This document shows, in pieces, positions 35,201 to 64,000 of a DNA stretch of 64,000 bases. This DNA comes from a virus. The DNA lies in the IMG/VR virus record IMGVR_UViG_3300032242_000468, positions 55,274 through 119,273 of that record. One strand, 5' to 3'. The position numbers and the translations under genes are program-made. The notes beneath the pieces are model-generated. The model had not been told where the DNA came from. It did no database searches and saw only the letters and a program-made list of their open reading frames with translations. How positions within the stretch are numbered: position 1 is the stretch's first letter; every line of letters begins with the position of its first letter.

Positions 35201-38200
35201 AAATTACCAGCAGTTGTTGTTGATGCATCTATTGTTGTGCAAGGATCATCTCTCTTAATTACAACAGATTCCACACACAATTTAAAAGTAAATGATTATA
35301 TTAATATAACACAATTTGATAATACTATCAATGGAATTTATCAAGTTCAAAAAATTGTATCTAATACACAATTTATTGTTAAGTCAATACTTACAACTTT
35401 GCCCACTGCATTTTTTCCAGGTATAGGAATCCTATTTAAATTTGTATCAGTTAGATTTGAGTTTATAGATGATATTGCTAATCACCCATTAATAAACTCT
35501 CTCGGGTACGGTGAAAAACTATGGATTGATAATGACGGCTCAGGTAGGTGGCTTGTTTTAGAAAAACAACAACCATATAATATTTCTTCATATCAGCCTA
35601 CATCAATAGAAATTGGGTCTAGCATTAATTCTAGATTTTCAGAGCGTATTATCATAGATTCTACTGGTGAAAAAATTATTGTCAGTGCTCCAAATTATCA
35701 AAATACTTTTACAGGAATTGATGGGCTAGTCTATGCGTTACGTAAGAATGGCACAGGTACTAATTCTATTGTAAATGTATCTGAAATTAAATTAAATATT
35801 GACAAAATTGGGACTTACTATAGCACAACCAGTTCGTCTGGATTTGGTAAAGCAGTGGCGTTTGATGCCGATAACGATATTATAATAGCAAGTGCACCAT
35901 ATGCTAGCGGAGTAAAATACACTACAAGTACCTCAACATTCTATAGTGTAACAATCAATGCCGCAACAGGAACTTATGTTAACCAAGGTTTAGTTAAATG
36001 GGAAACTATAAATTATGATTACGAAAGAGTAACAAATAATTTTGTTATTACTAGCCCTGAGCCTCAAAGTAATGCTTATTTCGGTTATGATCTATATTTA
36101 GGAAATATATCTCCTAGTGAAAAATTACTGGCGGTCACTAGCCCTGGTCAAAATTCTAATGCAGGTGCAGTTTATTGGTCGAGATATTCTGTTACCACTA
36201 CAAATACAGTAGTATATATTAATACAATTACTAACACACAACATAAATTAGATCCAATAGAACAACAACCTGTGTCTGGCGATCAATTTGGGTATGCTAT
36301 ATCTGGAGATCTAAAAGGAAATAACTTAGCAGTAAGTGCTCCTGGGTTAACTGACGGGTCTGGCGGAGTTTATATTTTTACCTATGAACCTATTAATTCT
36401 AGATTTACAAATACACAACTCATAAGAGCAATCGATTTAGGAGTTACCTATACCGGTGTAGGTTTTGGTAATTCAATATTGATTGATAACACAGGCAGAT
36501 TTTTGTTTATAAGCGCATCTGGTTCTTTAGATACAGATTACAAGGTTGGAAAAGTGTTTGTATTTTCACGTGTTTACAATGAGTTTGTTTACAGCCAAAC
36601 ACTAGTATGTCCTTTTGATAATTCCGGATTTTTCTTTGGATCAAATTTATCAATTTCGCCTAATGGTAAATCTTTATATATTTCTAGTAGTCAAGCATCG
36701 ACTCAACCAGATATTACATTTGAAAAATATAGTAATACCTATAAATCTTCTTATATAAATGATCCTAATAGTACGCCTACAGTAACTCCTACAACGTTTG
36801 ACGGGAAAACAACAAAATTTAAATCTAAGAGTATTATTGGGAATGGCTCAGTTTATGAATTTGAAAGATTAGACAACAAATTTTACTTTGCTCACGAAGT
36901 TAAAAATCCTAAACCTACATCCTATCAAAATTTTGGATCTAGTATAGCGGCTTCTAATTTTTGCGCCCTTATTGGATCTCCAGGGCAAGTAAATCAAACT
37001 GAATCTGTTGGTTATTTTAATATCTACGACCATTCAAACCTTACATGGAATATACTAAGGCAAGAAGATAATCTTATAAATCTTACTAAAGTTAAAACTG
37101 CAAAAACAATCGATACTACTCAACAGACTATAGTAGACTATCTTGAAATTTATGATCCGTTAAAAGGTCGTATTCCGGCACTGGCTGATCAAGAAATCAA
37201 ATACAAAACAGCATTTGATCCTGCGGTTTATTCTATTGGTGTCCCTGGTGTAACTGTAGATACCAATACAAATTGGTTAGACGAACATGTTGGAGAGTTA
37301 TGGTGGGATCTTAACTCAGTAAAATATGTTTGGTATGAACAAGGCGAATTAGATTTTAGAAATAATTCTTGGGGTAATTTATTCCCTGGTTGCACGATCG
37401 ATGTTTATGAATGGGTGTCTAGTACAAATATGCCTAATCAGTGGAGTGCAATTGCAGATACTAATGCAGGGCTTGGCCAGAATATAAGCGGACAACCTAA
37501 GTTTCCTTCTAATTCTGTTCTTAGTATTAAACAAGTTTATAATGCCACTACAAATGCTCTAACCAATATATATTATTTCTGGGTTAAGAATAAAATTACT
37601 ATACCACAGGTACCTGGTAGAAGCATGAGTGCATATAATGTCTCTCAACTAATTGCAAATCCTAAATCGCAAGGAATGAAATATGTATCTTTGATTGCCA
37701 ATAATGCGTTATCATTAACAAATATGAAACCTAGTGTTGTAGGAACTACTATCAATCTAAACATTGATATGGACTCTACTAATAATGTAGGTAATAAACA
37801 TACAGAATGGTTGTTAGTACAAGAAGGCAATTCCAGTAGTCAATTTAATAATTCCTTAATCCAAAAATTCAAAGATAGTCTATTAGGAAGAGATAGTTTA
37901 GGTAATCCTGTACCTGATCCTGCACTATCTGATAGATTAAAATATGGCGTAAGTATTCGTCCTAGACAAAGTATTTTTAAAGATAGATTCGCCGCTCTAC
38001 GAACACTCACTGAGTATAGTAATGCAACTTTAAGTACTATTAATTTTGTTGGTATTGACAATATAAATTATTTTACCTCAAGTGAAGCCTATGCCCAACC
38101 TGCCGAAGGTGTTTACGATGTAGTAGTTGATTCTGTAGTAGCACGAGATCAAACTATTATAACAAGAAAATTGGCACAGGCTGTTTTATCAGTCTCACTA

Positions 38201-41200
38201 ACTTATGGAAGAATTACCGGAGTAACTATTACAACCGCAGGATACGGATATGGTAAACTTTATCCTATAGAGTATGATATAAACGACAATCCAACATTAT
38301 GGATAGGCCCTACAGTAGAAATTATAGGTGATGGTGTAGATGCTAAAATCATTACTTTTGTAAACACTGTGGGACAAATTGTTCGTACTAAAATAAAGAA
38401 TCCTGGAAAAAATTATACATCTGCTCCTGCGGTTATTGTAAGACCTTTTACAGTTTTAGTTCAGTCTGACGAAACTGTTAATAATCGTTGGAGTTACTAT
38501 ACATGGGATTATACAAATAAAGTTTATTCAAGAATCAAAACCCAAAGTTGGAATACCCCAGAATACTGGTCGTATATTGATTGGAAAGATCCAACATACA
38601 ATAAAAATCAAGATATTAGAAGTACAGTTGATAGTATATATGAACTAGCATACATAGAAAATGTTAAAGCCGGAACTTACGTTAAAGTTAATAATGCAGG
38701 CGATGGTCGTTACATTATTTTAAGGAAAACAAATGGAACTACAGGAACATTTGATAATCAGTTTGATCTAATTTATCAACAAAATGGAACTATTCAAATT
38801 AGTGACATGATTTGGGATAATCAATTTGGGTTTGATTATCAAATTGGGTTTGATCAATTGAAGTATGATCAAAAGCCTGATATAGAAACTGAAAATATTA
38901 TTAACGGTTTATTAAGTCTTGCTACTCAGGAACATTCTAAGTACACTAATTTACTAATGTTTAAATTGGTCAAATACGCTTTGACAGAACAGAAATTTGT
39001 AGATTGGGCATTCAAAACATCATTTATTACTGTGGTTAATAATGCAGGTGCTCTTGACCAACGTCCTACATATAGACTCAATAATGAGACATATTATGAA
39101 CAATATATCAATGAAACCAAGCCTTATCATACAAAAATTCGTAATTTTCAGGCAAATTATACTGCTACAGATTTTACACAGTCATTGACTACTGATTTTG
39201 ACACACCGGCTGTTTATAATACCTTAACACAGAAATTTGTTCCTGTGCAATTAGGTAATTCATTGATGTTAAAATCACCATGGCGCGAATGGTATAAAAA
39301 TTATACCTATCATGTTGATAGTGTAGAAATTTATAGCGGCGGATCGGGCTATCAATACGCACCTCAAGTAGTGTTTAGCCCGGCGCCCGGCGATAGCGGA
39401 TCGGGCGCCGCCGGTGAGGCTTACATCAGCCAAGGTAAAGTTACTAAAGTTATTATTACAAATCCCGGTTCTGGATATGCGGCTACTCCAATAATGACTT
39501 TACTAGGAGGCGGACCAACAACATTAACTCCAGCAAGATTTGGTATCAGAATGAGTAATGGCCTTGTTCGCTCACAGACAATTACATTAAAATTTGATCG
39601 AGTGTCTGGGTATAATGAAATTAATTCTGCACAAACAGAAGATACATTCCGTGCTAACGGTTATTCGGATACTTATAAACTAACCTGGACTCCTACCCCA
39701 GAAAAATCATTGACTAATATTACTGTTAATGGTATTAAACTTTTGTCTGATGCTTATAGTTTTAATATTGGCACAGAAACATTTAACGGTTATACAAAGA
39801 GTTATGGTGAAGTCAAACTAGTAAATGTTCCTCCATACACGGCAACAGTTGTGGTTAACTATGTTAAAGACATTGGATTATACCATGCAGTAGATCGTAT
39901 TCGTGACTACTATAAACCAGAATCGGGAATGCCTGGTAATACAGCCACAATGTTAATGGCAGGATTAGAATATCCTGGTGTTACTGTAGATACACTTCCT
40001 CTTGTATCATCGACAGGCTATGATTCTACTCCTTATGGATCTAACAATTGGGACGACTACGAAACTGAAACTGGATTGTATCAAACAATTGGTAGTGCAA
40101 ATACATCGGTATATACACTAAACTACGTTCCGCAGATTGGTAATACATTAACTGTTTATGTCAATAATATTAGAATATATGGGACTAGCACGTACACTAC
40201 ATCAAGTAATTTAGAACTTGTCAATGGTATAATTCAGCCAGATGGTTATACAAATACAATTAATATTCATCAATTAACTCCAGATGGTTCGATTGGTCCT
40301 ATTGAGATTGACCGAGAAGCAATAGTTACATCTGAAGAGTTAGGAGGCCCGTATGAAAGAATTTCCTTTAATATACCGGCAAACACTGCTACCAATCAAA
40401 TTACCACAAGCGGATGGTTATGTTACATTGATGGAATTACAACTCCATTTAATGTCACTTCTATCAGTACTGGTAGTCCGAGGATTGTTATATTAAACTC
40501 GGGAACAGAATTTATATTAAATTTTCCTGTTAAATTTTATTTGCCAGGAACTCCGCAAATAGTTGATTTTAGGCTTGCAACTAGCGACGGTTCGATACCA
40601 ATTGTAGATCCTGACTTAGATACTTATATTTCTGGAGGACAAGAATTTACAACTAAAGTAACTTCTGGAGTTGCAGATAATCCATCTCCATTATTAGACG
40701 ATATAATCATAGATGGTGATAATCTGGTATCAAGATATAATAGTTATGGCCCTGAAGAAAACTTGCCAGGTAGGGTATCTGAAAGTTTAGGTATTAGTGT
40801 TTATACCCAACCGTCAACTGGCTCTGCACTAAGTGTACTTAGAACTTATATAGCAGATCCTGCTACAAAAACTTATTCTTTAGGAACAACTCCTCCAAAT
40901 GCAGATTCAGTTGAAGTGCTATGCAACAATAATATTATTACTGGGTATTCTATAAATTATATTAATCAAACAATAACACTAACCACAGGAACTTCTGGAT
41001 TGTTATCTGTAAAAACATTAGGAGTTGGTGGTACAAACATATTAGATAAACGTGTTATTATTGCTACAACCAGTACATCGATTATCGATATGGCTCCTCG
41101 ATTAGTTGATGTACATGACCAGTACATTACGCTAAATGGTGTAAAATTAGTAAAGGGTACAGATTTTGTATTATCTGCTGTTAATCTTAGAACGAGAGTT

Positions 41201-42763
41201 ACTCTTACACATTTATTATCTAAAAACGATGTCTTACAGATATGGTTGTTTGCCGCACCAATTAAAGCATTTAGTGAAGTTCGAAGTCAAACAATTATTG
41301 CTCAACCTGGAGAAAACAGTTGGGCATTGACTTATCCTCCAGAAAATATTCAACCATATCATACACAGGTTATTGTTGAACAAAATGGTAAACGATTGCT
41401 ACCCCCTGCTACTGTATATTTTACAGCAGATGGAGTTACAGAAAGTTATTCATTGAATACTGATTATAATTGGGGACAGGGAGTACCTTCGGAAAAAGTT
41501 ATAGAAGTTTATGTAAATGGATCTCCTGTAACTCCTAATGTAGAATTTGAATTAGTACAAAATGAAAATAGAATACAATTTTTACCTAATGTACTTAAAA
41601 AAGGTGATGTAGTTGCTATATGTGTGTTGTTAAATTATGAATTTACAATATCAAATAACAATTTGAATGTAACAGTTAATACCATCGGCACTAGTACAAT
41701 TGTAGTTCATTCATTTACTAATCATGATTCTAGTTTAATTAGGACTGAACGATATTTAGGGGGCACAGGAAATAGATTCCAATTAAGTAGAAATGTAGCA
41801 GGCCCCGAATATCTATGGGTAGAATATAATGGACAGCCTTTGATGCGTAATTTTGATTTTAGTATAATTAATTCAAATCAAGTTATTTTGGCTGATAAAT
41901 TTGTGCCACAAAGAACTGATCAAATTTCAATTACAAGTGTAAGCAATATTTTAGATACCGATAAGGTATTAGGTTACAGATTGTTTTTAGATAATCTAGG
42001 TAGAACAACCTATAAGAGGATCAGTGCCGCTAATTCTACCCAACTTGCTACTACACTTACATCTACAGCAACTTCTATTGAACTTATAAATGCATCAGTT
42101 CTTACACCTCCTAATTTTTCTAAGTTTATTCCGGGGGTTATCATTATAAACGGCGAACGTATTCAGTTCTATAGCATTACAGGAAACACATTAACACAAT
42201 TAGTTCGAGGTAGTTTAGGTACAGGCATCCGTGATAGTTATCCTGCTGGTACTACAGTTATTGACCAAGGTTCTTACCAAACTCTATATGTTGAAGATGC
42301 TCAGCAAGAGTGGATGACCAATGTAACAAATACAGCAACATTACATTATAATATATCTAGTTTAACAGTTAAAAATTCTACATCAACTGCGTATGATGTT
42401 TATTATCAGGGTCGTTTATTAAGAAAACCTGGAACCAAATCCATCCAGACAAATGTTACTATTGCATACGATAGTAATGAAACAAGTGCAGAAGGGATTC
42501 AGTCTAATAAACTGTTGGGGGGAGAATATAATATCTCAAGCGGAACACTAATATTAAATACTGGAACAATATTAACTTTGGGATCTAGGATTAAGGTAGT
42601 TTCAAGGTATGGTCAAAGCATGTACGCTCAAATACATTCTACATCAACTGTACTACATAACATTCCTGTAGATCCGATGCATCAAAATGCTACTCCTCAA
42701 GTGACATTCCTGTCAAGATCACCGGCCGCACTGCCAGATAAATATTACTATGGACAACAATGA
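29288..42763 (+). CDS. Giant baseplate/tail structural protein (gp7 position), 4491 residues
   Basis: One uninterrupted frame of 13.5 kb encodes 4491 residues. The N terminus (LLPTIFKTDRNAKFLAGTID, LVNFEKYYWMPYGPDVV) is like large wedge proteins of T4-like marine phages that follow gp6; T4 gp7 has 1032 residues. Visible parts are a beta-propeller with seven FG-GAP-like blades (about 2110-2570), GxGYxxxP motif pairs near 2984-3040 and 3349-3395, and a C-terminal ERIQFYSITGNTLTQLVRGS module (about 4250-4330). The rest is beta-rich, Asn/Thr/Ser/Tyr-rich. It probably forms the baseplate rim and fibre mounts. A short GC-rich patch at 39363-39417 encodes Gly/Ala/Pro and is explained by those codons. 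Confidence 0.8.
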   Translation: MPANVSKVSYLGSTSTNRRTIDLLPTIFKTDRNAKFLAGTIDQYLEPAKVERVNGWVGTKNTPTYNPSTDNYIPTNSPLRSAYQVEPALIVNDANLKPQETLAYDDLINQLKFNGANVSNLGKLFNPEFYSYNPNINWDKLVNFEKYYWMPYGPDVVTVTGQLKNTISSYTVSDANGNFLFTPDGLTEAPQLTLYRGVTYIFNIRSTKKFWIKTQRVAGTDSPFRVITTNGISHGQIIFTVDENTPKKLFYVAEDNVLNGGEIVIESIEDNSNLNVVNDIIGKSTFTSGNGVIFSNGMRVSFAGNITPAEYQTGEYFVEGVGSEIKLINAASLEVPEQFISNLDDNFDGAPFDDYPFDTFINAPLTPEYVTIDRSSIDRNPWTRYNRWFHEDVIISSATYNNRTPVLPVELRAKRPIVEFLPNLQLFNFGSLAVENVQHLDSTTTDVFNSIEGSEGFYVDGVELANGDRIIFTANTDNYVNRRVWIVNFVQVDGKLKIALVEDTELSIGTNVVITQGAKHKGSSWWFDGIQWVYAQQKIVLNQAPRFDVFDSEGYGLSDTAKYQSNFTGTKIFGYGIGTGVSDSILGFPLKYQSVADQAFYLFENYFTQDQITVVNGNQTSYISLSTNYLKKNSATGYSYINIWEESQSYTTPILQSVVPTSPATVLEITCVDFPAYQSLTLEVYRNNIKLFENIDYTRYVDTSRLFVLFTKSIQTTDHILFKVYGNAVPNSNGFYEISPGWLNNPMNGDIQEFTLSELTDHFKSMADRNPKFTGNYLGSNNSRDLINFASYGTRLIKNKNPLAFAGYFITDQTHNVISAVTTVERHYNQFKLGFISQATALKGIYKPSKAVDIILHNMNLAKNPSSQYYHSDMLAYGPDVISNTITVTDSRNTMYGLNSTYVSGVNNPRSVIVYHVPASTGLEYQLFYGHDYIFDQYDPTVVITKPLVKGDKIIICDYPSTDGSFIPPTPTKLGLYPKFTPAIYYDDSYSGDPKLVIRGHDGSISLAFNDYRDQIILELETRIYNNIKVNYNPELINIHSVTPGRFRTTKIVKTTVNNILRSQFLKWNNFYGFDYELNDTYSDDPKTWNFITANDPATKIPLYGNHRGIYSYYFDTTTPHLTPWEMLGFSEMPAWWIDTYGPAPYTSGNLILWDDLEKGYVRDPMNSRINPLYVRTGLSKIIPVDEYGNLLDPAASNIAQNVNPNSINLNWKFGDQGPVETAWRRSSHYPFSIQILMALSNPANYASLMFDTSRISINPASQYVYSETNNFLKLSDLVIYGDTINGSIVRATGYSAMLVETGKIKSLTYIADLKTYLSNMTMQLLTKVGGFVSKDKLEIIIDSINPASVNPGVALSNEDYQIFLNQSSVVDSIGVSGIIIQKTDTGYILRGYDNTEPYFTSFTPIPGGAITIGGASEPFVKWAASSPTDSGLTPGELSTAVTANTGYIFYKAGQVVYYNGRYYRAKVGHTSGSTFNINYFQPLPALPHIGGISVNTPVKFDTTPVVTPYGVTFSTYQEVYDLIVGYGSWLESQGVIFDEYNSDLNDIMNWNYTGKEFLYWASQGWSSNSIITLSPFANSLQYQNSTAMVDDLGNTAYEYSVLKADGKPLPIHNLNAIRQDGTISVSTRNTNDGIYFIRFNSVQKEHNLIFNNTSLFNDIIYNVETGYSQRRLKLNGLRTSQWDGSLYSPGFIYDEAMVDNWTEYTDYHPGDVVLYSGNYYSAIKKLTGVSSFNFNDWQLLDKKPTAQLLPNFDYKINQFQDFYSLDIDNFDSNQQALAQHLIGYTPRPYLDNIFANPVSQYKFYQGFIREKGTRNSITKLAKASKQTLDSYIDYYEEWAFRVGEFGSFDTDYSIELNLDETKFEQNPQIIEFIPTAFASSAFQTRIYQTPSDLIIKPNNYNSRPFDTTSTVYSDVFKLPYAGYVRLNDVTATAFNKATLTNISNSRGLSDGDTIWIGFTENLGWDVYRHTKLPAVVVDASIVVQGSSLLITTDSTHNLKVNDYINITQFDNTINGIYQVQKIVSNTQFIVKSILTTLPTAFFPGIGILFKFVSVRFEFIDDIANHPLINSLGYGEKLWIDNDGSGRWLVLEKQQPYNISSYQPTSIEIGSSINSRFSERIIIDSTGEKIIVSAPNYQNTFTGIDGLVYALRKNGTGTNSIVNVSEIKLNIDKIGTYYSTTSSSGFGKAVAFDADNDIIIASAPYASGVKYTTSTSTFYSVTINAATGTYVNQGLVKWETINYDYERVTNNFVITSPEPQSNAYFGYDLYLGNISPSEKLLAVTSPGQNSNAGAVYWSRYSVTTTNTVVYINTITNTQHKLDPIEQQPVSGDQFGYAISGDLKGNNLAVSAPGLTDGSGGVYIFTYEPINSRFTNTQLIRAIDLGVTYTGVGFGNSILIDNTGRFLFISASGSLDTDYKVGKVFVFSRVYNEFVYSQTLVCPFDNSGFFFGSNLSISPNGKSLYISSSQASTQPDITFEKYSNTYKSSYINDPNSTPTVTPTTFDGKTTKFKSKSIIGNGSVYEFERLDNKFYFAHEVKNPKPTSYQNFGSSIAASNFCALIGSPGQVNQTESVGYFNIYDHSNLTWNILRQEDNLINLTKVKTAKTIDTTQQTIVDYLEIYDPLKGRIPALADQEIKYKTAFDPAVYSIGVPGVTVDTNTNWLDEHVGELWWDLNSVKYVWYEQGELDFRNNSWGNLFPGCTIDVYEWVSSTNMPNQWSAIADTNAGLGQNISGQPKFPSNSVLSIKQVYNATTNALTNIYYFWVKNKITIPQVPGRSMSAYNVSQLIANPKSQGMKYVSLIANNALSLTNMKPSVVGTTINLNIDMDSTNNVGNKHTEWLLVQEGNSSSQFNNSLIQKFKDSLLGRDSLGNPVPDPALSDRLKYGVSIRPRQSIFKDRFAALRTLTEYSNATLSTINFVGIDNINYFTSSEAYAQPAEGVYDVVVDSVVARDQTIITRKLAQAVLSVSLTYGRITGVTITTAGYGYGKLYPIEYDINDNPTLWIGPTVEIIGDGVDAKIITFVNTVGQIVRTKIKNPGKNYTSAPAVIVRPFTVLVQSDETVNNRWSYYTWDYTNKVYSRIKTQSWNTPEYWSYIDWKDPTYNKNQDIRSTVDSIYELAYIENVKAGTYVKVNNAGDGRYIILRKTNGTTGTFDNQFDLIYQQNGTIQISDMIWDNQFGFDYQIGFDQLKYDQKPDIETENIINGLLSLATQEHSKYTNLLMFKLVKYALTEQKFVDWAFKTSFITVVNNAGALDQRPTYRLNNETYYEQYINETKPYHTKIRNFQANYTATDFTQSLTTDFDTPAVYNTLTQKFVPVQLGNSLMLKSPWREWYKNYTYHVDSVEIYSGGSGYQYAPQVVFSPAPGDSGSGAAGEAYISQGKVTKVIITNPGSGYAATPIMTLLGGGPTTLTPARFGIRMSNGLVRSQTITLKFDRVSGYNEINSAQTEDTFRANGYSDTYKLTWTPTPEKSLTNITVNGIKLLSDAYSFNIGTETFNGYTKSYGEVKLVNVPPYTATVVVNYVKDIGLYHAVDRIRDYYKPESGMPGNTATMLMAGLEYPGVTVDTLPLVSSTGYDSTPYGSNNWDDYETETGLYQTIGSANTSVYTLNYVPQIGNTLTVYVNNIRIYGTSTYTTSSNLELVNGIIQPDGYTNTINIHQLTPDGSIGPIEIDREAIVTSEELGGPYERISFNIPANTATNQITTSGWLCYIDGITTPFNVTSISTGSPRIVILNSGTEFILNFPVKFYLPGTPQIVDFRLATSDGSIPIVDPDLDTYISGGQEFTTKVTSGVADNPSPLLDDIIIDGDNLVSRYNSYGPEENLPGRVSESLGISVYTQPSTGSALSVLRTYIADPATKTYSLGTTPPNADSVEVLCNNNIITGYSINYINQTITLTTGTSGLLSVKTLGVGGTNILDKRVIIATTSTSIIDMAPRLVDVHDQYITLNGVKLVKGTDFVLSAVNLRTRVTLTHLLSKNDVLQIWLFAAPIKAFSEVRSQTIIAQPGENSWALTYPPENIQPYHTQVIVEQNGKRLLPPATVYFTADGVTESYSLNTDYNWGQGVPSEKVIEVYVNGSPVTPNVEFELVQNENRIQFLPNVLKKGDVVAICVLLNYEFTISNNNLNVTVNTIGTSTIVVHSFTNHDSSLIRTERYLGGTGNRFQLSRNVAGPEYLWVEYNGQPLMRNFDFSIINSNQVILADKFVPQRTDQISITSVSNILDTDKVLGYRLFLDNLGRTTYKRISAANSTQLATTLTSTATSIELINASVLTPPNFSKFIPGVIIINGERIQFYSITGNTLTQLVRGSLGTGIRDSYPAGTTVIDQGSYQTLYVEDAQQEWMTNVTNTATLHYNISSLTVKNSTSTAYDVYYQGRLLRKPGTKSIQTNVTIAYDSNETSAEGIQSNKLLGGEYNISSGTLILNTGTILTLGSRIKVVSRYGQSMYAQIHSTSTVLHNIPVDPMHQNATPQVTFLSRSPAALPDKYYYGQQ
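42737..42744 (+). promoter_or_regulatory. Possible internal late box GATAAATA
   Basis: It differs by one base from TATAAATA, within the end of the giant gene and 29 bases before the second possible start (42774) of the next gene. It may be chance in AT-rich sequence. Confidence 0.3.
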
Positions 42764-56184: not shown

Positions 56185-56630
56185 TAACTGACCTCGGCTC
56201 TTCCGTTACCAATACTTGTTACATCAATAAAGCCAGAACCTCGTCTGTCCATATTGACCCCTTCTTCGGCTCCGACATTACGACAAAGTTCACTGAACCA
56301 TTGGTCCACAATCTCTTCGTCTGTTTTGCCTCTGTAGCCTTCTGCTTTTAATTGTAACACAAAGTACTCGTTCCAGTCAAGTTCAAAGAACCCGTTACGA
56401 ATATTATCCTGATTAACATGTGTATTTAATACCGCAACCCAAGGCTCTTTGTTAAGAGTAGCACGTTCTTTTGGAGTCATAGCCGCCGCTTCTGCGTATA
56501 ATTTGGCTTCTGCGGCTTTAATAACTGCTTGTTCTTCAATTTCTTTGGCAACTCTTGCGGCTTCTTCTGCTTTGGCTTTTTCTGCCTCAATCTTGTCTAT
56601 ACCAAAAATACGCTTAATTAACTTGTTCAT
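56184..56630 (-). CDS. Conserved phage protein with coiled-coil N terminus
   Basis: The 148-residue protein has an Ala/Glu/Lys coiled coil (about 10-55) and a folded C-terminal part with KEPWVAVLNTHVNQDNIRNG and FFELDWNEYFVLQLKAEGYR. Relatives are common in T4-like marine phages without known function. I chose the ATG at 56630, which forms TAATG with the queE stop; an ATG at 56642 would add four residues inside queE. Confidence 0.7.
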   Translation of the reverse strand: MNKLIKRIFGIDKIEAEKAKAEEAARVAKEIEEQAVIKAAEAKLYAEAAAMTPKERATLNKEPWVAVLNTHVNQDNIRNGFFELDWNEYFVLQLKAEGYRGKTDEEIVDQWFSELCRNVGAEEGVNMDRRGSGFIDVTSIGNGRAEVS

Positions 56631-57475
56631 TATGTACCCCATTCGTTTTTAAATAGTGGCACTTGTAATCTATCACTATAACGCCATCCACGTTTCATAG
56701 CCGCCAGTGCTACATTCTTTGCATTTAAGTTATACACACTTTCAACACCGCCCACTGGCATTAGATAAACATGACCAGTAAATCCAGCGGCACGATACGC
56801 ACTAACAGCACATTCTGCGTCGGCAATATCTTGTTCAGTTGCTACTACAAATTTAAGATAAGCAGTTCCGAACCATTCGTATTCACAAACAACTTTAGGT
56901 TGTATAGCATCCTCCCATGATTCTCCACTTGCTGGTAATTTGGCACTTACACTAAATGTAATTTCTCTACCAGATTTATTGGCCCATTTATATAGATACG
57001 ATCTGAATTCATCAGATAGACGCTGAGTTCCATTTGTTTCAAATGTAATCTCTTTTAAGCCAGCCATTGAAGGATGATTTAACAATTCAGGATATTGTTT
57101 CTGCCAGCCTAATAATGGCTCCCCACCTGTGATTACAAGATGTTCGTCTTCCCACCTTTTGTTAGGAAGTATATCCATAATCGAATCGGCAATACTATCA
57201 GTAGAAAGCATAGGAGAAAGATGCTTGAAGCGAGGATCCCAACTAGCGTAACTATCACAGCCGGTACTAACAAGAGGCAATTCTCTATATTCGTTAAACA
57301 TGTGTACAACAGATGCGATATCTTCAACTTCATCACTTAATTCTCCTCTTGGCATGCCAAATCCGGCACATTTAAAATTACAACCAAACACACGCAAGAA
57401 CACGGAAGGTACTCCCATGTACCTTCCTTCACCTTGTACGCTGTAAAATAGTTCTGCTACTTTAAGTTTTGCCAT
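56630..57475 (-). CDS. queE: 7-carboxy-7-deazaguanine synthase QueE (radical SAM)
   Basis: The 281-residue protein begins VAELFYSVQGEGRYMGVPS and FLRVFGCNFKC, the QueE N terminus, and has LVITGGEPLLGWQ and ITFETNGTQ, which bind S-adenosylmethionine. QueE turns 6-carboxytetrahydropterin into 7-carboxy-7-deazaguanine. The usual CxxxCxxC cluster motif is broken: Cys32 and Cys36 are followed by GFG, and the next Cys is Cys73 in TGCDSYASW, after a 36-residue insert. This variant is what I recall from T4-like phage QueE proteins. With FolE, a QueD-like protein and a DpdA-like protein in the same block, it likely serves DNA modification. Confidence 0.9.
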   Translation of the reverse strand: MAKLKVAELFYSVQGEGRYMGVPSVFLRVFGCNFKCAGFGMPRGELSDEVEDIASVVHMFNEYRELPLVSTGCDSYASWDPRFKHLSPMLSTDSIADSIMDILPNKRWEDEHLVITGGEPLLGWQKQYPELLNHPSMAGLKEITFETNGTQRLSDEFRSYLYKWANKSGREITFSVSAKLPASGESWEDAIQPKVVCEYEWFGTAYLKFVVATEQDIADAECAVSAYRAAGFTGHVYLMPVGGVESVYNLNAKNVALAAMKRGWRYSDRLQVPLFKNEWGT

Positions 57476-57663
57476 TAATTTGTTTCCTGTCTAAATCGTT
57501 GTAAAAACGCACCAATTAGACAATTGTATTCTTGTCCTGTTGCGGGGTTAGTATAGTATACCCATGTTCCGTCTTCTTTGTCAACAACATTAGTGACCTT
57601 AAATTCGGTACTATCAGTTGATGTCCATGTACTTGGAAAATCAATAATATGTTTAGCCGGCAT
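57475..57663 (-). CDS. Small protein of unknown function
   Basis: The 62-residue protein has a short beta-rich core (FKVTNVVDKEDGTWVYYTNP) and YNCLIGAFLQRF. It overlaps the queE start by one base and the cupin-like gene by 11 bases, so it belongs to the same transcript. No function is recognised. Confidence 0.6.
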   Translation of the reverse strand: MPAKHIIDFPSTWTSTDSTEFKVTNVVDKEDGTWVYYTNPATGQEYNCLIGAFLQRFRQETN

Positions 57664-58117
57664 TTTGTTTCTTCTCGTTTAAATATGTTTCATAATGGAT
57701 CCACTTGTTGTTAACAAGAAAACCCCATTCACGTTTTCTCGGACCTACAAAAAATAGTGTCCATGCTGTAACATCGGGATCTAATTCAATTCGATGATAA
57801 GTGTTCATCTTACCAAATCTAAAAGTTCCTGCTCCTCTCCATTTTTTAACTTCGGCAATCTTGTTGCCTTGGTCGTCAAACATAGGAAGCCATTCCCAAT
57901 AACCGCCTTTTAGAATAAGACTGGCATAGTTCCAAGGATGATCATGAACATCATCCGGATCAGATTTTAAAAACTTGTGTAAAAATATATTATAAGGAAA
58001 TGTTACACGCTCTTTGAATAAGACGTAATAACGCTCTAAGTATGGCTCCTGATCGGTACGATCCATAATAATACGTTTGCGATCATGTCGTTCTAACCAG
58101 TTTAAGAGCCATTTCAT
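57653..58117 (-). CDS. Cupin-like protein
   Basis: The 154-residue protein has HDHPWNYASLILKGGYWEWL, a His-rich turn followed by Gly, as in metal-binding cupins, and a C-terminal WTLFFVGPRKREWGFLV that closes the barrel. The small-molecule target is unknown. I chose the ATG at 58117 (MKWLLNWLERHDRK), one base past the upstream stop; longer starts run back over that gene. Confidence 0.65.
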   Translation of the reverse strand: MKWLLNWLERHDRKRIIMDRTDQEPYLERYYVLFKERVTFPYNIFLHKFLKSDPDDVHDHPWNYASLILKGGYWEWLPMFDDQGNKIAEVKKWRGAGTFRFGKMNTYHRIELDPDVTAWTLFFVGPRKREWGFLVNNKWIHYETYLNEKKQNAG

Positions 58118-58118
58118 C

Positions 58119-58310
58119 TTAGTCGTCCTTTTCCATATCCAATGCTTCGTTAATAACAGCAAACAATTCTTCACGTGTACCACACATGATCTTTGCTGTC
58201 TTCCAATCGTTTTCGTCATCACGACCGCTAACTTCGATCATAAAACCGTTGTCATAACGATTGACTGTAAATGATTCGTTTACTTTTGATAGTTTTTCTA
58301 AATGTGCCAT
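58119..58310 (-). CDS. Small protein of unknown function
   Basis: The 63-residue protein includes SFTVNRYDNGFMIEVSGRDD and a CGTREELFAVINEALDM helix, a beta-then-alpha pattern. A strong AAGGAG site lies 6 bases before the ATG. It sits between folE and the cupin-like gene in the same transcript. Confidence 0.6.
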   Translation of the reverse strand: MAHLEKLSKVNESFTVNRYDNGFMIEVSGRDDENDWKTAKIMCGTREELFAVINEALDMEKDD

Positions 58311-58321
58311 TTGATTCTCCT

Positions 58322-59071
58322 TTATCTTGGGGCAAACTCTTGTTGAAGTTTAATGTTATCAAAGAATTCTTTCTTTGTATTTCCGTCTGTATTAAAAGCA
58401 CCTTTGAGCACAGTTGTCTGTGTTAATGAACTATGTGCCATAATACCTCGATTCTCACAACATCCGTGTGTCATCTGCATGTATACACCGATGTCATCTG
58501 CGCCTGTGGCCTTGCCTATTTCTTTAGCAATGTCATTACAAAGTTCCTCCTGGAGAGTACCTCGTCTGGCACACCACTGAGCGATTCTGCTGTATTTTGA
58601 GAGACCGATAAGTTTTTGTGCGGCAATAATACCAATATAAGCAACACCAGCCACAGGTTGGTGATGATGGCTACACATAGAGCGAAGCTCACTGCGGACA
58701 ACCAACATACCTTGATAGCGGTCCTCCGAATCATTTGGGAACGCTGTTGCGTCTGGTCTTGAATCATATCTTCCACTCATCACCTCATTAATGTACATTT
58801 TTGCTAATCGCTTGGCAGTACCTTTACTGCTTGGATCAGTCTCTGTATCGATTAGCAGAGTTTTAAGCACCTGTTCAAATGCCGACGTTGCTTCTTCGAT
58901 TAGTTGTTTTCTAATAGCAGGACTATCTACGTATTCACTGATATTGTCATTTGCCCAGAATCTTTTACCATCACGCCTCATTTTGAAACGCAACACATCT
59001 GCCAATGTTGATTCTTCGTAGCCGCCGTCTCCGGCCATTGCGTCTAACGCAGTTTCTTTTTTCTTCTTCAA
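58322..59071 (-). CDS. folE: GTP cyclohydrolase I (FolE)
   Basis: The 249-residue protein has the zinc site MCSHHH (Cys and first His bind the metal), IAAQKLIGLSKYSRIAQWCA and HGCCENRGI, which holds the second zinc Cys. It turns GTP into 7,8-dihydroneopterin triphosphate, the first step toward 7-deazaguanines and folate. The length fits the family (about 220 residues in bacteria) with an N-terminal extension. A sigma70-like promoter with a perfect -35 lies upstream. In this block it most likely feeds the QueD-like protein and QueE. Confidence 0.95.
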   Translation of the reverse strand: MKKKKETALDAMAGDGGYEESTLADVLRFKMRRDGKRFWANDNISEYVDSPAIRKQLIEEATSAFEQVLKTLLIDTETDPSSKGTAKRLAKMYINEVMSGRYDSRPDATAFPNDSEDRYQGMLVVRSELRSMCSHHHQPVAGVAYIGIIAAQKLIGLSKYSRIAQWCARRGTLQEELCNDIAKEIGKATGADDIGVYMQMTHGCCENRGIMAHSSLTQTTVLKGAFNTDGNTKKEFFDNIKLQQEFAPR

Positions 59072-59111
59072 GTTATTCTCCGATGTTGAGGCAGTGGATT
59101 GCCATTTGTTT

Positions 59112-59140
59112 ATAATACAGGATTATTTAGGTTCTGTCAA
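59112..59140 (-). promoter_or_regulatory. Strong host sigma70-like promoter for folE
   Basis: On the minus strand a perfect TTGACA (59135-59140), a 17-base spacer and TATTAT (59112-59117; 5 of 6) lie about 40 bases before the folE ATG. The -35 box overlaps the end of the upstream dehydrogenase gene. Confidence 0.8.
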
Positions 59141-59923
59141 GCGCAGTAAAGTATTTTTCTTTACCGCGGCATCAACAACATTCATATTTAGACCGAGCAT
59201 CTCAGCATACTTTAATAATGCGGAAGTGTCTTTGGGAAAACAAGCACCTCCAAATCCAAATGCGCCATCTGGACCTGGTACTTGTAAATGACTGCTACCG
59301 ATACGATTGTCTGCTTTGATCATAGCAGAAATCTTGCCATAGTTCAGTCCAGACTTTTGGGCTACATTATATAGTTCATTCATGAATACAACTTTGGTTG
59401 CCAAGAATGAATTGATAGCATATTTTGCCAATGCGGCGTCGCCGATAGAACAATAGTATACTGATTCGATATTACGCTGAGATAATCTAATAACTTTTTC
59501 TGCTGTGTTTATATGATCAAATTCACGACCGCCAATAAACGCAAATGTGCCTCCTGCATAATCTCTTACGGCATTAGCCGCAGTTAGAAATTCTGGAGAA
59601 TGTACCAGATTAAGATATTCATTGTTTAGACGAGCGTAGGCATCAGGTGGAGCGGTACATTTACTAATAATAGTACCATTAAAATTAACTGCACGTAGTT
59701 TGGCTAATACGTCTTCTAAGATAGAGGTATCACAACTACCGTCATCGCCTTGTGGGCTTGGAACACATACAAATACCGCCGTACATTTAACTAGATCTTC
59801 ATATGAACTATTATATCCCTTAGCAGGATCAATTAATACAAGTGGTGTAATATTACTATAGACATCAAATGCTTCTTTAATAGCATTGCCTACAAAACCT
59901 AATCCAATAATTCCGACTTTCAT
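59123..59923 (-). CDS. UDP-glucose/GDP-mannose dehydrogenase-like protein, short form
   Basis: The 266-residue protein has the NAD-binding MKVGIIGLGFVGNAI, FVCVPSPQGDDGSCD, the SPEFLTAANAVRD substrate segment and the catalytic Cys in FGFGGACFPKDTSAL. These enzymes oxidise a sugar nucleotide to its uronic acid. Normal members have about 430 residues; the C-terminal domain that holds the sugar nucleotide is missing here, yet the frame ends cleanly. It may need a partner, or act on another substrate. It overlaps the GNAT gene by ATGA. Confidence 0.82.
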   Translation of the reverse strand: MKVGIIGLGFVGNAIKEAFDVYSNITPLVLIDPAKGYNSSYEDLVKCTAVFVCVPSPQGDDGSCDTSILEDVLAKLRAVNFNGTIISKCTAPPDAYARLNNEYLNLVHSPEFLTAANAVRDYAGGTFAFIGGREFDHINTAEKVIRLSQRNIESVYYCSIGDAALAKYAINSFLATKVVFMNELYNVAQKSGLNYGKISAMIKADNRIGSSHLQVPGPDGAFGFGGACFPKDTSALLKYAEMLGLNMNVVDAAVKKNTLLRLTEPK

Positions 59924-60375
59924 TTTACTTTTTTTCCCATAAGAATTGATACAGGAGTAATATCTAATTTCTCAAGTATTCTAAGATGTTCGTGATTTTT
60001 AACATGAACTATTCCGGTTATAAAATTACAATCGTTATCTAATGCAATTTTATCTAAATACTTGTGCATAATTTTAAAAATTCCTTTTTTTCTGTTATCA
60101 GGAGTGACATAACTTAATATTTTATGTAAACTTTTTGAAATCCTTATTTCTATTATTATACACCCTAAAATTTTACTATCTTGCTCTGCATAAATTCCAA
60201 TAAATTTACTTGATTCTTTCCATTGTGCTTCGGTCATAGGCCATGCCCACCCCCTTTCTACTAACTCTGCATGTCCGTTCCTATAAAGTTGTTCAATTGA
60301 ATGATTAACAATATTATCGACATAATGTACATTGATTATATTTCCGAGTTTATCTATATCACTACCGACTTTCAA
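59920..60375 (-). CDS. GNAT-family N-acetyltransferase
   Basis: The 151-residue protein has the GNAT core: SKILGCIIIEIRIS, then LSYVTPDNRKKGIFKIMHKY, where the RxxGI/K loop binds acetyl-CoA. Substrate unknown. It lies between a sugar nucleotide dehydrogenase and a glycosyltransferase, with 4-base overlaps on both sides, so a sugar amine is a reasonable guess. Confidence 0.72.
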   Translation of the reverse strand: MKVGSDIDKLGNIINVHYVDNIVNHSIEQLYRNGHAELVERGWAWPMTEAQWKESSKFIGIYAEQDSKILGCIIIEIRISKSLHKILSYVTPDNRKKGIFKIMHKYLDKIALDNDCNFITGIVHVKNHEHLRILEKLDITPVSILMGKKVK

Positions 60376-61436
60376 TTAATATTCTCCAATAGTTCACGGG
60401 CAGAAAAGAAATTGTCTGTTAAACTTTCTGCTTGTTGTTTTAATTTAGGTAAACGTGTGTGATAGTAATCCATATGGCTTATAATAGCACGACATAAATC
60501 AGGACGGTATATATTATACGAATCCCAACTTTCTGTCCATTTACTCTCATACTTAAAAATGTCATAATACATTTCGCTATATGATAGTCGATCTGGTACC
60601 ATAGGAATAGCATCTACAAGAGCACCTTCATAACAGCCTATGCCTAATGTCTCTTGTAAAGAACAACTAAACACTAGTTTAGCCTCGCCTAACAAATTGT
60701 GATATTCGTTCTTGGTTAGTTGTTGATCCTGACAAACAACAAATTCATATTGTGGTAAGTGATTTTTTAGATCTCTAAAAAGCTCAACCTGTTTCTCGGG
60801 AGCAATACGATGTGGGAAAACAATAAGATCACGTTTGGGCATGTTCTTATATGCAGTTAATGTTCCATTCATATACTCCATTGGCCAGCCTGTGCGTACA
60901 ATTTTTGTATCGTATAATTCTTTAGCAGGAGTAAATCCTAATAAGTTTTCGCAGAATAATTCAATATGAAATTGCGTAGCAAAGTAGTTGTGATCAAATG
61001 CGTGATAGAAACTCTTTTCTGCGTGACGTACCCAGGGATTATCTCCAACTAAGCGTCCGAGAAAGTCTTGAGGATCATAACTACCAGCATGCCATAGGCC
61101 GTGTGTTACTACTGGAATGTTCAGTAGTTCACTCATGTACTTTAGATTTATAATCCCAGGATGCCAAGCATCATAAAATACAAAATGATCACCAGGCTTA
61201 ACAGATCCTGAGCAGAATAAACGACCCATCTGCTCCACCTGAGATGACTTATATATATTGGTACCACCAAAATTGAGGAAAGCACCAGGAGTAGTGGCGT
61301 TAGGAATATCCGTAGGGCCATCGATAATTTGAACATTGTGTCCTGCCTTTTTTAATAACGCAGGTACATGAGTCTTCCACTGACTTGTGTACCTAGTCTC
61401 AACTGCTTCTAAGTCAACTAAAAAAACTTTTGCCAT
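60372..61436 (-). CDS. GT-B glycosyltransferase-like protein
   Basis: The 354-residue protein has the C-terminal GT-B features LIVFPHRIAPEKQVELFRDL and VFSCSLQETLGIGCYEGALV, where the Glu-rich motif binds the sugar nucleotide. The N-terminal half has a Rossmann-like start and FYDAWHPGII. It could glycosylate DNA, a phage protein or a host surface sugar; the sequence does not decide. It is coupled to both neighbours (overlap with GNAT, TAATG with the gene before). Confidence 0.75.
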   Translation of the reverse strand: MAKVFLVDLEAVETRYTSQWKTHVPALLKKAGHNVQIIDGPTDIPNATTPGAFLNFGGTNIYKSSQVEQMGRLFCSGSVKPGDHFVFYDAWHPGIINLKYMSELLNIPVVTHGLWHAGSYDPQDFLGRLVGDNPWVRHAEKSFYHAFDHNYFATQFHIELFCENLLGFTPAKELYDTKIVRTGWPMEYMNGTLTAYKNMPKRDLIVFPHRIAPEKQVELFRDLKNHLPQYEFVVCQDQQLTKNEYHNLLGEAKLVFSCSLQETLGIGCYEGALVDAIPMVPDRLSYSEMYYDIFKYESKWTESWDSYNIYRPDLCRAIISHMDYYHTRLPKLKQQAESLTDNFFSARELLENIN

Positions 61437-61657
61437 TATCTATACTTTTTGTGCTTGTTTTCATAACGCGGTTTAAACTCTCCTCCGTTTTGTTTACGAG
61501 AAAAGTATTTGTATTCCTGTGACCTATATAAATCACCGGGATTAAAAGGGAGCATGTTAAACCTACAGTAATCTAACCACGCATCAAGATCATCGAAGAT
61601 CTTTTCAACTTCGGGTTTCATACGTAGAGTTTTTGTAACATAGCCTGGAAGCGACAT
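61436..61657 (-). CDS. Small basic protein of unknown function
   Basis: The 73-residue protein begins MSLPGYVTKTLRMKPEVEKI and ends in a basic, aromatic tail. I chose the ATG at 61657 because AAGGAA lies 8 bases ahead; an earlier ATG at 61726 would run back over the QueD-like gene. No function is recognised. Confidence 0.6.
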   Translation of the reverse strand: MSLPGYVTKTLRMKPEVEKIFDDLDAWLDYCRFNMLPFNPGDLYRSQEYKYFSRKQNGGEFKPRYENKHKKYR

Positions 61658-61667
61658 CTTAATTTCC

Positions 61668-62057
61668 TTAATATTTGATGAATGAACCATTTTCTCCGTC
61701 TTCGGAGACCTCAATCCAAATCTCACGACCTGGATACTTTTGTGAGATAGTGTCGTACAGTTCGTCTGACATCATCTCGCAACTCTTATAATCTAATTTA
61801 AGTATACTATCTTTGTAAAGGTTTTCCAACCAGCGTTTGAATTGAATAAACTCAATATCTCGATCGTTATGAACTACACTGATCCATACACGAAAATGGA
61901 AAATATGTCGATGAGGAGTACCAAGGAATGATACATCATATTCATCGCCTGTAGCCAATGCAGGATCTGTTGCGGCGGCTGGATAGCAGTGAATACCTTC
62001 TTTCTGGAACGTCACCCAGATCATTTTGTTTGGACGGATGTCTTGCTTAATTATCAT
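61668..62057 (-). CDS. queD: QueD-like 6-pyruvoyl/6-carboxy-tetrahydropterin synthase
   Basis: The protein of about 129 residues has KEGIHCYP, then a THRHIFHFRVWI strand with an HxH motif, DIEFIQFKRW and a C-terminal EIWIEVSEDGENG. This follows the T-fold order of QueD: one His, an HxH pair binding zinc, a helix and a final Glu strand. QueD makes 6-carboxytetrahydropterin from the FolE product for QueE. The catalytic Cys usually found just before HxH is not visible; the Cys in IHCYP lies elsewhere. I chose the ATG at 62057, which overlaps the previous stop by 11 bases. The family call rests on motif order and the que gene context. Confidence 0.65.
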   Translation of the reverse strand: MIIKQDIRPNKMIWVTFQKEGIHCYPAAATDPALATGDEYDVSFLGTPHRHIFHFRVWISVVHNDRDIEFIQFKRWLENLYKDSILKLDYKSCEMMSDELYDTISQKYPGREIWIEVSEDGENGSFIKY

Positions 62058-62583
62058 AATCAAATAAACTTTCAAAAACAGATTTTATTGGAGCAAACTT
62101 TTTGTGGAATTGATATCCGTCGTCTATATTTCCGATTGGATATTCTCCATAAAACTTTTTATGATTTTCTATCAACTCAATTTCTGCACTTTGTATTTCG
62201 GATGTTGTGTTTATAGTTTGAAAAGGGTAATTATCAAAACTCCAAAGAGTTACAACTATATTGTTATGATTCATACCGGTAGAATATCTATTTTTATATT
62301 CTTTATTGTAAAACAAGAATTCACTACCATTGCCGCCTATTAATTTATAGGCTCCCCAACTATCTAGATGTCCAATTTGTCTATAAATTCTTTCACCATG
62401 TTGGGTAGTAGATGCGTCAGTCATACCATATTTGACAGTATGATTTTCATGCCTTATCTCGTATGTGCCTTTACTGACTCCTAAACGTTTGACAATACTC
62501 ATAATTTCCGAAGGTTCAAGTAAACCTTTAAGTGGAAATTGATATATTTGCGTTGCATTCCAATTAGTTTGACGTGTTATCAT
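62047..62583 (-). CDS. Unknown phage protein, possible GIY-YIG/T5orf172-like nuclease
   Basis: The 178-residue protein has HTVKYGMTDASTTQHGERIY followed by RQIGHLDSWGAY, which recalls the second half of a GIY-YIG-like nuclease core (Y-x-G-x-T, then a conserved Arg). It also has FDNYPFQTINTTSEIQSAEI and a conserved-looking YPIGNIDDGYQFHKK. I cannot find a clear first GIY motif, so the nuclease call is weak. It overlaps both neighbours and lies inside the 7-deazaguanine block. Confidence 0.45.
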   Translation of the reverse strand: MITRQTNWNATQIYQFPLKGLLEPSEIMSIVKRLGVSKGTYEIRHENHTVKYGMTDASTTQHGERIYRQIGHLDSWGAYKLIGGNGSEFLFYNKEYKNRYSTGMNHNNIVVTLWSFDNYPFQTINTTSEIQSAEIELIENHKKFYGEYPIGNIDDGYQFHKKFAPIKSVFESLFDYDN

Positions 62584-63109
62584 TTAAAATCTCATCTCCT
62601 GTATACTGATCCCAGTCAGTAAACTTGTCGGTTGATAAAAGGTCGTGTAGTCTGTGACACCACACGCCGGGGTTAGTAGCGGCAAAGTCTTTGTCGTCTA
62701 TCTTTAGTGTAGCATTATATCCCAGTTGTTGTAAATAGGGCAATTTAACCGAAATCTGAGGAATAAACTTTCTGTTCTCAGTAAGTCCTGATTCCAAAAC
62801 ACCTTCAGTTTCTTTTACATCAAAATCTAATGTACACCAATATCCTCGATCCAAACAGGGGGTAATCATACTTTCCCAAAGTCTCCAAGTAACTCCGTCA
62901 TTAACTCCGCCTGTGCGGAAACTTTGATTAGCACCAAAATAAATATGCTTTACATTTTCAGCCTTAGCCATTGCCAAAATTTCTTGTAGATTTTGAACAC
63001 CTACCACAAATAGTGTTTCCATTCCATAAGCAGGTGTATGTTCTACTTCTATACCTGAGAAGAATACTACATCTTCTTCAATTTGACCTTCTTCGTATTC
63101 TCTTTTCAT
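62564..63109 (-). CDS. Conserved phage protein coupled to the DpdA-like gene
   Basis: The 181-residue protein includes VEHTPAYGMETLFVVGVQNL, AENVKHIYFGANQSF, CLDRGYWCTLDFDV, QISVKLPYLQQLGYNATLKI and a C-terminal NPGVWCHRLHDLL. I know relatives in T4-like marine phages but no function, and no known enzyme motif is clear. The ATG overlaps the stop of the DpdA-like gene by ATGA, the tightest form of coupling, so it may help the DNA modification step. Confidence 0.65.
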   Translation of the reverse strand: MKREYEEGQIEEDVVFFSGIEVEHTPAYGMETLFVVGVQNLQEILAMAKAENVKHIYFGANQSFRTGGVNDGVTWRLWESMITPCLDRGYWCTLDFDVKETEGVLESGLTENRKFIPQISVKLPYLQQLGYNATLKIDDKDFAATNPGVWCHRLHDLLSTDKFTDWDQYTGDEILNDNTSN

Positions 63110-64000
63110 ACTGTTACTTTTTCTTCTAATGTTCTTAATGTAGGATCATCCTGTTGATCAAACAGTACTGTTACGCCATCTGGAGCACGTTGTAACATAG
63201 TTTCTCCCTCAATAGTAAACAACGATCCGAATGTGTTTTGAGCGGGACCTCCCTGCAGTCGAGCACCTTCTAGACTACGTAAGAATGATAAACCATCATT
63301 AATCATTTGGAATGCTTCGTCTTTAGTCTTTGTATTAAACAACTCTTCAATAAAATTAGAAAAATATAAAATTCTGCGTGGAACCCAATCGCTGTACTCT
63401 TTTTCTTTTTTGCCTTCAATGCCGGCTAGTCTCCAATTGAGTTTATATTTGGCACATTCTATGTCCATTAATTCTTGAGCACGTTGTACAGCAACAATAT
63501 GACATTCGACATTATGACCCATCATTAAGGCATAGGCAAAACTATCCCACGAAGTTTTACCTTCTTTGCCGATCTTGTTTAACATGCCCGGCGCATAATG
63601 ACAGATGTCTGCCATTGTCAATCTGCGACCGACTGTGCTTTCAAACGGGAATGGTATGTCGCTTCCAGCAAGGGCTTTATTGTCTGGGGCTTTGTCCATA
63701 ATAACACTCCACCTTTTTGGACTGTGTTGTGCGTTTGTGTAGACAAGTCCGTGCGCGGTTGCGATGAACGGTGAGGCGCAGTCAAAAGATATGGTAAGCT
63801 CTTCATTGATGTGTTTCCTAATTTGACGTTGAATTAAAGTTAGATAGCATGACCAATCTAACTGTGCTGTACCCAAGAAGTGGATCCAGTTTTTGCCTTC
63901 TAGCAAACCTTCATCTCTAAGCGTCATCATACGCTTAAGAGTAATATCCATTTTACACATATTAGCACCACCAAAAGCCCAACCTTCTGCTTCTTTACCA
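63106..64000 (-). CDS. dpdA: tRNA-guanine-transglycosylase-like protein, likely DpdA, partial
   Basis: The frame is open to the right edge; 298 C-terminal residues are seen. It follows the transglycosylase order: an EGWAFGGAN strand (like the Gly-Gly turn that binds the base), a helix MDITLKRMMTLRDEGLL, then WIHFLGTAQL, and ELTISFDCASPF. The Asp of SFDC fits the nucleophile in the MFDC of bacterial Tgt. The Tgt zinc motif CxCxxC is not seen. Tgt homologues encoded by phages with que genes (DpdA) put a 7-deazaguanine into DNA. The first ATG inside the window (63960) is internal. FolE, QueE and a QueD-like protein lie within 6 kb on the same strand. Confidence 0.75.
   Translation of the reverse strand, partial: GKEAEGWAFGGANMCKMDITLKRMMTLRDEGLLEGKNWIHFLGTAQLDWSCYLTLIQRQIRKHINEELTISFDCASPFIATAHGLVYTNAQHSPKRWSVIMDKAPDNKALAGSDIPFPFESTVGRRLTMADICHYAPGMLNKIGKEGKTSWDSFAYALMMGHNVECHIVAVQRAQELMDIECAKYKLNWRLAGIEGKKEKEYSDWVPRRILYFSNFIEELFNTKTKDEAFQMINDGLSFLRSLEGARLQGGPAQNTFGSLFTIEGETMLQRAPDGVTVLFDQQDDPTLRTLEEKVTV

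Follow-up and report, generated by a model that had tools for sequence, protein, structure and literature searches.

What does the gene cluster at one end of IMG/VR virus record IMGVR_UViG_3300032242_000468 do to the guanine in its phage's DNA? The window analysed here is the last 64,000 bases (55,274-119,273) of this 119,273-base record. An earlier note on the window had proposed a phage 7-deazaguanine DNA-modification pathway encoded by folE, queD-like, queE and dpdA-like genes. All four are present on the minus strand, and FolE and QueE profile matches, a Tgt fold and conserved catalytic aspartates support the pathway and its DpdA-like enzyme. The gene list had overlooked one member, a glycosyltransferase (GT) gene at 60372-61436. 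Leaving any sugar step aside, the cluster is quite likely a 7-deazaguanine DNA-modification module that works without QueC and uses a new DpdA-like subfamily. From the contig end inwards, the order on the minus strand is the cut dpdA-like gene, u181, u178, the T-fold gene, u96 and the GT gene, followed by genes for a GNAT-type protein and a nucleotide-sugar dehydrogenase, folE, a 63-aa gene, a cupin gene, a 62-aa gene and queE.

FolE (58322-59071, minus strand) is a GTP cyclohydrolase I, matching PF01227 at E=3.5e-38 (131.3 bits against a cut-off of 27) and the PHROG GTP cyclohydrolase family at 2.9e-43. Its translation carries the zinc motifs CSHHH and HGCCENRG, and the initial call of this gene holds. 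QueE (56630-57475, minus strand), the 7-carboxy-7-deazaguanine (CDG) synthase, was likewise correctly named, with a match to the PHROG profile phrog_2076, 'QueE-like radical SAM', at E=1.8e-51. Its five best NCBIfam models are all QueE (1.5e-14 to 2.3e-11), each below its curated cut-off, and by eye a CxxxC motif is followed by 36 residues and then a Cys within GCDS. The established route to CDG runs through FolE, QueD and QueE (PMC6884629).

The dpdA-like gene (63106-64000, minus strand) is truncated by the contig end itself and not merely by the window edge, and its 5' part lies beyond the contig. Judged by the modelled structure of a relative, its product is a divergent member of the guanine transglycosylases, in a DpdA-like subfamily outside bacterial Tgt proper. 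For the remaining 297 codons, which include the SFDC nucleophile motif, PHROG gives nothing at 0.1 and Pfam nothing relevant. Relatives are mostly about 500-560 aa counted from the first ATG, and the full-length ones carry DSGG(Y/F)Q, LD(V/I)P, GW(A)FGGAN, HFLGT and SFDC motifs. The fold was tested on one of them, L010, a 518-aa homologue 90% identical to the window fragment, with AlphaFold2 and 40 alignment rows (pLDDT 86.3, pTM 0.85). All 13 of the Foldseek matches to this model in the PDB at E<=0.001 are tRNA-guanine transglycosylases, and the alignment to 2ash_B has Z 20.0 and rmsd 4.7 over 306 residues. Viral proteins matching the fold come from Vibrio phage nt-1, Achromobacter phage Motura and Mycobacterium phage Bella96. 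The catalytic aspartates, those of the DSGG, LD and (S)FD motifs, are conserved in 42/42, 42/42 and 43/43 family members (the window row is cut at the first two), and E. coli Tgt has the same motifs. The CxCxxC zinc motif is found in none of the 43 members, none of which matches PF01702 (TGT) at E<=0.1, and a profile alignment of the family with E. coli Tgt reaches 9% probability, with the SFDC nucleophile motif aligned. The Tgt/DpdA assignment made from motifs stands on the fold of the 90%-identical relative and the conserved aspartates. Fold, residues and context suggest that DNA is the target.

Tblastn searches of 50,697 cultured-phage records find the transglycosylase in 13, of which 11 are Pseudomonas phages of the PA5oct type (39% identity; PA5oct itself twice), one is Sinorhizobium phage Phosso (27%) and one is Vibrio phage 2.275.O (26%). 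The family profile has no match in CP220, nt-1, 9g, X1, BUCT-ZZ01 or ACP17, an empty answer that shows little, and PDB sequences searched with the profiles of four cluster families gave nothing useful. In Vibrio phage 2.275.O (L006:9011-16034) the DpdA-like gene of this family precedes one for an amidoligase-like protein (PF12224, slightly short of the cut-off), and further genes that follow are annotated as QueF, as a transporter, as queuosine biosynthesis (identified by profile as QueC) and as FolE. It is possible that this amidoligase-type neighbourhood decorates preQ1 further.

The T-fold protein (61668-62075, probable start 62057, minus strand) belongs to phrog_17812 (E=9.5e-33) and had been described as queD-like. 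Its AlphaFold2 model (pLDDT 92.1) is a beta-beta-alpha-alpha-beta-beta T-fold, whose best Foldseek match in the PDB is E. coli QueD (E=3.7e-4). VIA-align gives Z 10.6 and rmsd 2.5 over 107 aligned residues with E. coli QueD, and Z 11.8 and rmsd 2.2 over 94 with P. horikoshii PTPS. This structure search settles the fold; the profile alignments of the family are weak (32% probability over 41 columns with phage PTPS and 2% with the single E. coli QueD sequence), and Pfam PTPS matches one of 35 members, at E=0.073. Like E. coli QueD and PTPS, the protein has a His-rich zinc site and a C-terminal Glu; the zinc-type histidines and this Glu are invariant in 35/35 sequences. The protein differs from QueD at the catalytic Cys27 and at Asp70-His71. 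Leu stands at the Cys27 position in all 35 aligned sequences and in 7/7 further named carriers (42/42), and C-x(2-4)-HxH occurs in 0/35. Asp70-His71 has no confidently placed counterpart, the nearest candidate column being His in 10/35. By motif, distinct phage PTPS sequences show Cys-HG(H/Y) in 24/25 and the Asp-His pair in 25/25.

A separate PTPS is often encoded in the same genomes. It was found in 20 of the 45 IMG/VR records searched for PTPS and QueC (from those behind 160 loci), among them 15 of the 17 that are at least 100 kb long. It is also found in 5/5 named phages and then 6/7 further ones (weakly in Ahp1); of the 11 named T-fold carriers, 10 have it and D479 does not. Because of the Leu replacement (42/42) and the separate PTPS (10/11), the T-fold protein was rejected as the pathway's own QueD: the fold half of the queD-like label was right and the identity half was not. 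The protein is very likely a second enzyme with the QueD fold. In two phages the T-fold domain is the C-terminal part of a larger protein, Vibrio phage Bakedbeans (L209:11212-12363) and Chryseobacterium phage MA9V-3 (L212:11395-12276).

QueC is missing from the window, as previously noted, and from the whole 119-kb record, in which PF06508 (QueC), PF01242 (PTPS) and PF01702 (TGT) have no match at E<=0.001. None of the 11 named T-fold carriers has a full-length QueC either, and for this reason the T-fold enzyme probably acts on CDG, beside QueD and mostly without QueC. Among the named phages, full-length QueC occurs only in Vibrio phage 2.275, where neither the T-fold gene nor the GT has a match. 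Three proteins with partial QueC-type matches were read; two have a PP-loop with a Cys cluster and one has a PP-loop without it. Another subgroup of ATP-pyrophosphatases may be represented by L197:1168-1797 and L204:1078-1797, PP-loop proteins similar to QueC that bear a Cys cluster at the C-terminus and match PF06508 in part.

The GT gene (60372-61436, minus strand) encodes a GT4-type enzyme of 354 aa. The window protein has no Pfam match at 0.01, and three of 34 family members match PF00534 at E<=0.01 (best 2.5e-4), the two that were scored falling below the cut-off. All four positions of an E-x7-E motif and an R...K pair (R...EK), the donor-site motifs of GT4 enzymes, are invariant in 34/34 sequences. 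The family profile also recovers proteins of Xanthomonas phage X1 (E=2.6e-43) and Synechococcus phage BUCT-ZZ01 (6e-25) from outside the alignment, and both of these homologues exceed the Pfam GT cut-off.

The GT is embedded in the module and is a constant member of it in close relatives. IMG/VR contains 565 stretches related to the DpdA-like gene and 205 related to the GT gene, the best 80 of each being examined. The loci are close relatives, some on one contig, and the co-occurrence counts are not independent. Among the dpdA-fetched loci with 5 kb downstream (43/80), all 43 contain u181, the T-fold gene, u96 and the GT gene; among the GT-fetched loci with 6 kb upstream (55/80), all 55 contain dpdA, u181 and the T-fold gene, and 52 contain u96. 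The u181 gene is at 62564-63109 and u96, a small conserved protein between the T-fold and GT genes, at 61436-61726, both on the minus strand.

Distant genomes matter more than these counts. The GT profile matches five of 12 named records, and in all five the gene adjoins T-fold or Tgt-like genes, with two divergent Tgt-like families represented. In Acidovorax phage ACP17, X1 and BUCT-ZZ01, GT and T-fold genes form one run with the other Tgt-like family, phrog_10773 (motifs DSGG, SFDE, H-LG-G and SYDS); in BUCT-ZZ01 another GT-like gene lies at the opposite side. In PAC2, a phage of the PA5oct type, the GT is flanked on one side by the T-fold gene and on the other by a transglycosylase gene of the window's family, and in Phosso it overlaps the T-fold gene near folE. 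Tblastn detects the GT in 19 of the 50,697 phage records, 15 of which carry the T-fold gene. The T-fold gene itself is found in 26 phage records, 16 of which have the GT (the 15 by tblastn and BUCT-ZZ01 by profile).

The proposed pathway would begin with FolE converting GTP to dihydroneopterin triphosphate, which a separate QueD (seen in relatives and absent from the fragment) and QueE would turn into CDG. In QueC's place, the T-fold enzyme would most likely remove or transform the carboxyl group of CDG. The DpdA-like enzyme would then swap guanine in phage DNA for the product, and the GT4-type enzyme would perhaps glycosylate the base, either within the DNA or ahead of its insertion. Sugar addition is the weakest link and is suggested by gene linkage alone. 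CDG as such, the product named in the earlier note, stands as one option; the probable processing by the T-fold enzyme and the constancy of the GT in close relatives speak against it.

Taken as a whole, the reading in which CDG or a derivative made by the T-fold enzyme is inserted by the new DpdA-like subfamily, then sugar-coated by a dedicated GT4 enzyme, and is widespread in environmental phages, has a probability of about 0.4. It is possible, if doubtful, that the DNA contains plain dCDG or dDG (7-deazaguanine) and that the GT has a different target, such as a further DNA base or a glycan of the cell surface or the virion. The base pathway does work without the GT, since in six of the 11 named T-fold carriers the whole genome gives no match to it; distant GT relatives adjoin amino-sugar genes, and sugar-donor genes vary (UGD in 47/170 records). 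This alternative has to contend with the 5/5 named genomes in which the GT adjoins T-fold or Tgt-like genes, two divergent Tgt-like families being represented, and with the 55/55 close relatives with room in which the GT accompanies the module. Several observations weigh against the proposed pathway. Decarboxylation of CDG by the T-fold enzyme, if it occurs, would remove the obvious sugar acceptor; a carboxylate kept by the enzyme could bear a glycosyl ester. The GT of Phosso is about 170 kb away from dpdA, 10 of the 26 phage records with the T-fold gene show no GT match, the four most distant GT matches (25% identity; three Xanthomonas PhiXhv phages and Erwinia phage Ep032) are not T-fold carriers, and co-occurrence among the IMG/VR loci partly reflects descent from near relatives. 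The absence of QueC is also open to challenge, as partial QueC-type matches are found in 8/45 IMG/VR relatives and in two named T-fold carriers, D479 (above the cut-off) and X1 (below it), and the genome is fragmentary, so that QueC could sit outside the fragment, which likewise has no PTPS match.

The partial QueC-type matches and the fragmentary genome would fit an ordinary preQ0/ADG pathway, with QueC either encoded beyond the fragment or supplied by the host. Such a pathway is unlikely given the 0/11 named T-fold carriers with full-length QueC and the fact that the lone relative with it, Vibrio phage 2.275, has neither a T-fold nor a GT match. That the T-fold protein is the phage's functional QueD is most unlikely: the shared fold is compatible with this, as are the zinc-type histidines, the C-terminal Glu and the lack of a PTPS match on the 119-kb fragment, in two of 17 IMG/VR relatives of at least 100 kb and in D479, and against it are the Leu at the Cys27 position throughout and the separate PTPS of the other 15 large relatives and 10/11 named carriers. 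A tRNA target, with a queuosine-like product, is more improbable still. Every solved structure among the best fold matches is a tRNA enzyme, but the family lacks the bacterial Tgt zinc motif in all 43 members, the modelled homologue has 518 aa against 375 aa in E. coli Tgt, and the viral fold matches include a 464-aa nt-1 protein that is probably the DpdA2 described for nt-1 in PMC6884629.

Phages with the T-fold gene and no GT match have other neighbours. In Cellulophaga phage phiST, Chryseobacterium phage MA9V-3, Vibrio phage D479 and Aeromonas phage Ahp1, a kinase-type gene (AAA_18 or deoxynucleotide monophosphate kinase) lies near the T-fold gene, together with a compact protein of 259-290 aa with Tgt-like motifs (DNG/DNS, PQG/PQS, HFLG/HCLG and S-x-D). 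Members of this compact family are at L206:15813-16592 (phiST gp042), L212:12749-13543, L211:12683-13540 and L207:12450-13322. Profile comparison relates this family to the transglycosylases weakly, at 42% probability, and shows no relation to it of the genes tested beside the T-fold gene of Bakedbeans or of RHph_I1_18. Judging by motifs, the compact family is possibly a minimal DNA transglycosylase. If so, the T-fold gene accompanies three Tgt-like families and the GT two, which would fit a role of the T-fold enzyme in making or handling the inserted base, with the GT as an add-on.

An amino-sugar cassette lies next to the distant GT relative of Xanthomonas phage PhiXhv-15 (L238:9819-13905), a phage with no T-fold match; it consists of two genes with the annotations GlmS-type aminotransferase and BshB-type deacetylase, and one for a Gfo/Idh-type oxidoreductase.

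Other genes of the cluster are more variable. The short nucleotide-sugar (UDP-glucose-type) dehydrogenase (59123-59923, minus strand) matches PF00984 (1.6e-22) and TIGR03026 (2.3e-38, below its cut-off), and its gene is found in 47/170 records. At 266 aa, its family match ends near residue 294 of the 413-position profile, and FGGACFPKD is kept; the short form is typical because relatives are mostly 250-271 aa. The GNAT-type acetyltransferase (59920-60375, minus strand; PF00583, E=3.3e-5) is found in the window only among the 170 records scanned, and u178 (62047-62583, minus strand) is lineage-specific, occurring in the window and one other record. The cupin-type protein (57653-58222, minus strand) matches phrog_4786 (5.5e-38), named 'cysteine dioxygenase' in PHROG, and occurs in 111/170 records. 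The conserved partner u181 also adjoins folE in ACP17 and is about 27 kb from the GT in PA5oct-type phages. It has no useful family match in Pfam, PHROG, NCBIfam or PDB-sequence searches; comparison showed no relation to the T-fold family, and comparison with the compact Tgt-like family found nothing. In two module phages (L210:7471-7932 and L002:7670-8104) a phosphoribosyltransferase gene adjoins queE, annotated in BUCT-ZZ01 as xanthine-guanine type; such an enzyme could salvage the guanine freed by base exchange.

The remainder of the 119-kb record consists mostly of long open frames that look structural by eye; window positions 29288-42763 are one open reading frame of 4,491 aa. With regard to circularity of the contig, the minus-strand frame at its opposite end was judged by eye and is not a transglycosylase.

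QueC-less phages with dCDG or dDG, a transglycosylase called DpdA3 and a predicted CDG decarboxylase called DpdL were reportedly described by Cui et al. in NAR in 2023; we know of no GT in that work. The window's T-fold gene (phrog_17812) is a candidate for DpdL, and DpdA3 may be a counterpart of the window transglycosylase.

The phage DpdA systems described in PMC6884629 share with the window FolE, QueE and a Tgt-related transglycosylase, and include QueD. Unlike the systems covered there, the window module includes a second T-fold gene and a GT. For phage Bipper, which lacks QueC, the same text gives 7-carboxy-7-deazaguanine as a possible product (Hutinet et al. 2019, PMC6884629).

The role proposed for the window GT resembles that of the phage T4 DNA glucosyltransferases, which place sugar on a modified base of phage DNA. 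The T4 enzymes modify a cytosine derivative (PMC13216743), whereas here a GT4-type enzyme lies beside a 7-deazaguanine pathway. Glycosylated 7-deazaguanine, if present, would be a guanine hypermodification analogous to the glucosylated cytosine of T4. In vertebrates, QTMAN and QTGAL glycosylate the side group of queuosine in tRNA, placing a sugar on a 7-deazaguanine derivative in nucleic acid; no family of this type is among the Pfam matches of the GTs. To our knowledge, sugar-coating of phage DNA is limited to pyrimidines, and no glycosylated 7-deazaguanine in phage DNA was found in the literature searched, a search of partial coverage that is no proof of absence. As far as these tools show, what is new is a transglycosylase subfamily outside Pfam and PHROGs, the evidence against a QueD identity of the QueD-like gene, and the linkage of a GT.

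Replacement of guanine by 7-deazaguanines is a known anti-restriction strategy of phages (PMC6884629), and by analogy with the systems described there the module may protect its phage from restriction. Pfam detects next to nothing of the transglycosylase, the T-fold enzyme and the GT, so that the trait escapes standard annotation. Relatives of the module occur in many environmental contigs (the 565 DpdA-like and 205 GT stretches in IMG/VR). If the sugar-coated reading is true, a guanine counterpart of sugar-coated DNA would be predicted in these contigs and in cultured phages (the PA5oct/Paride group, ACP17, X1, Phosso and BUCT-ZZ01).

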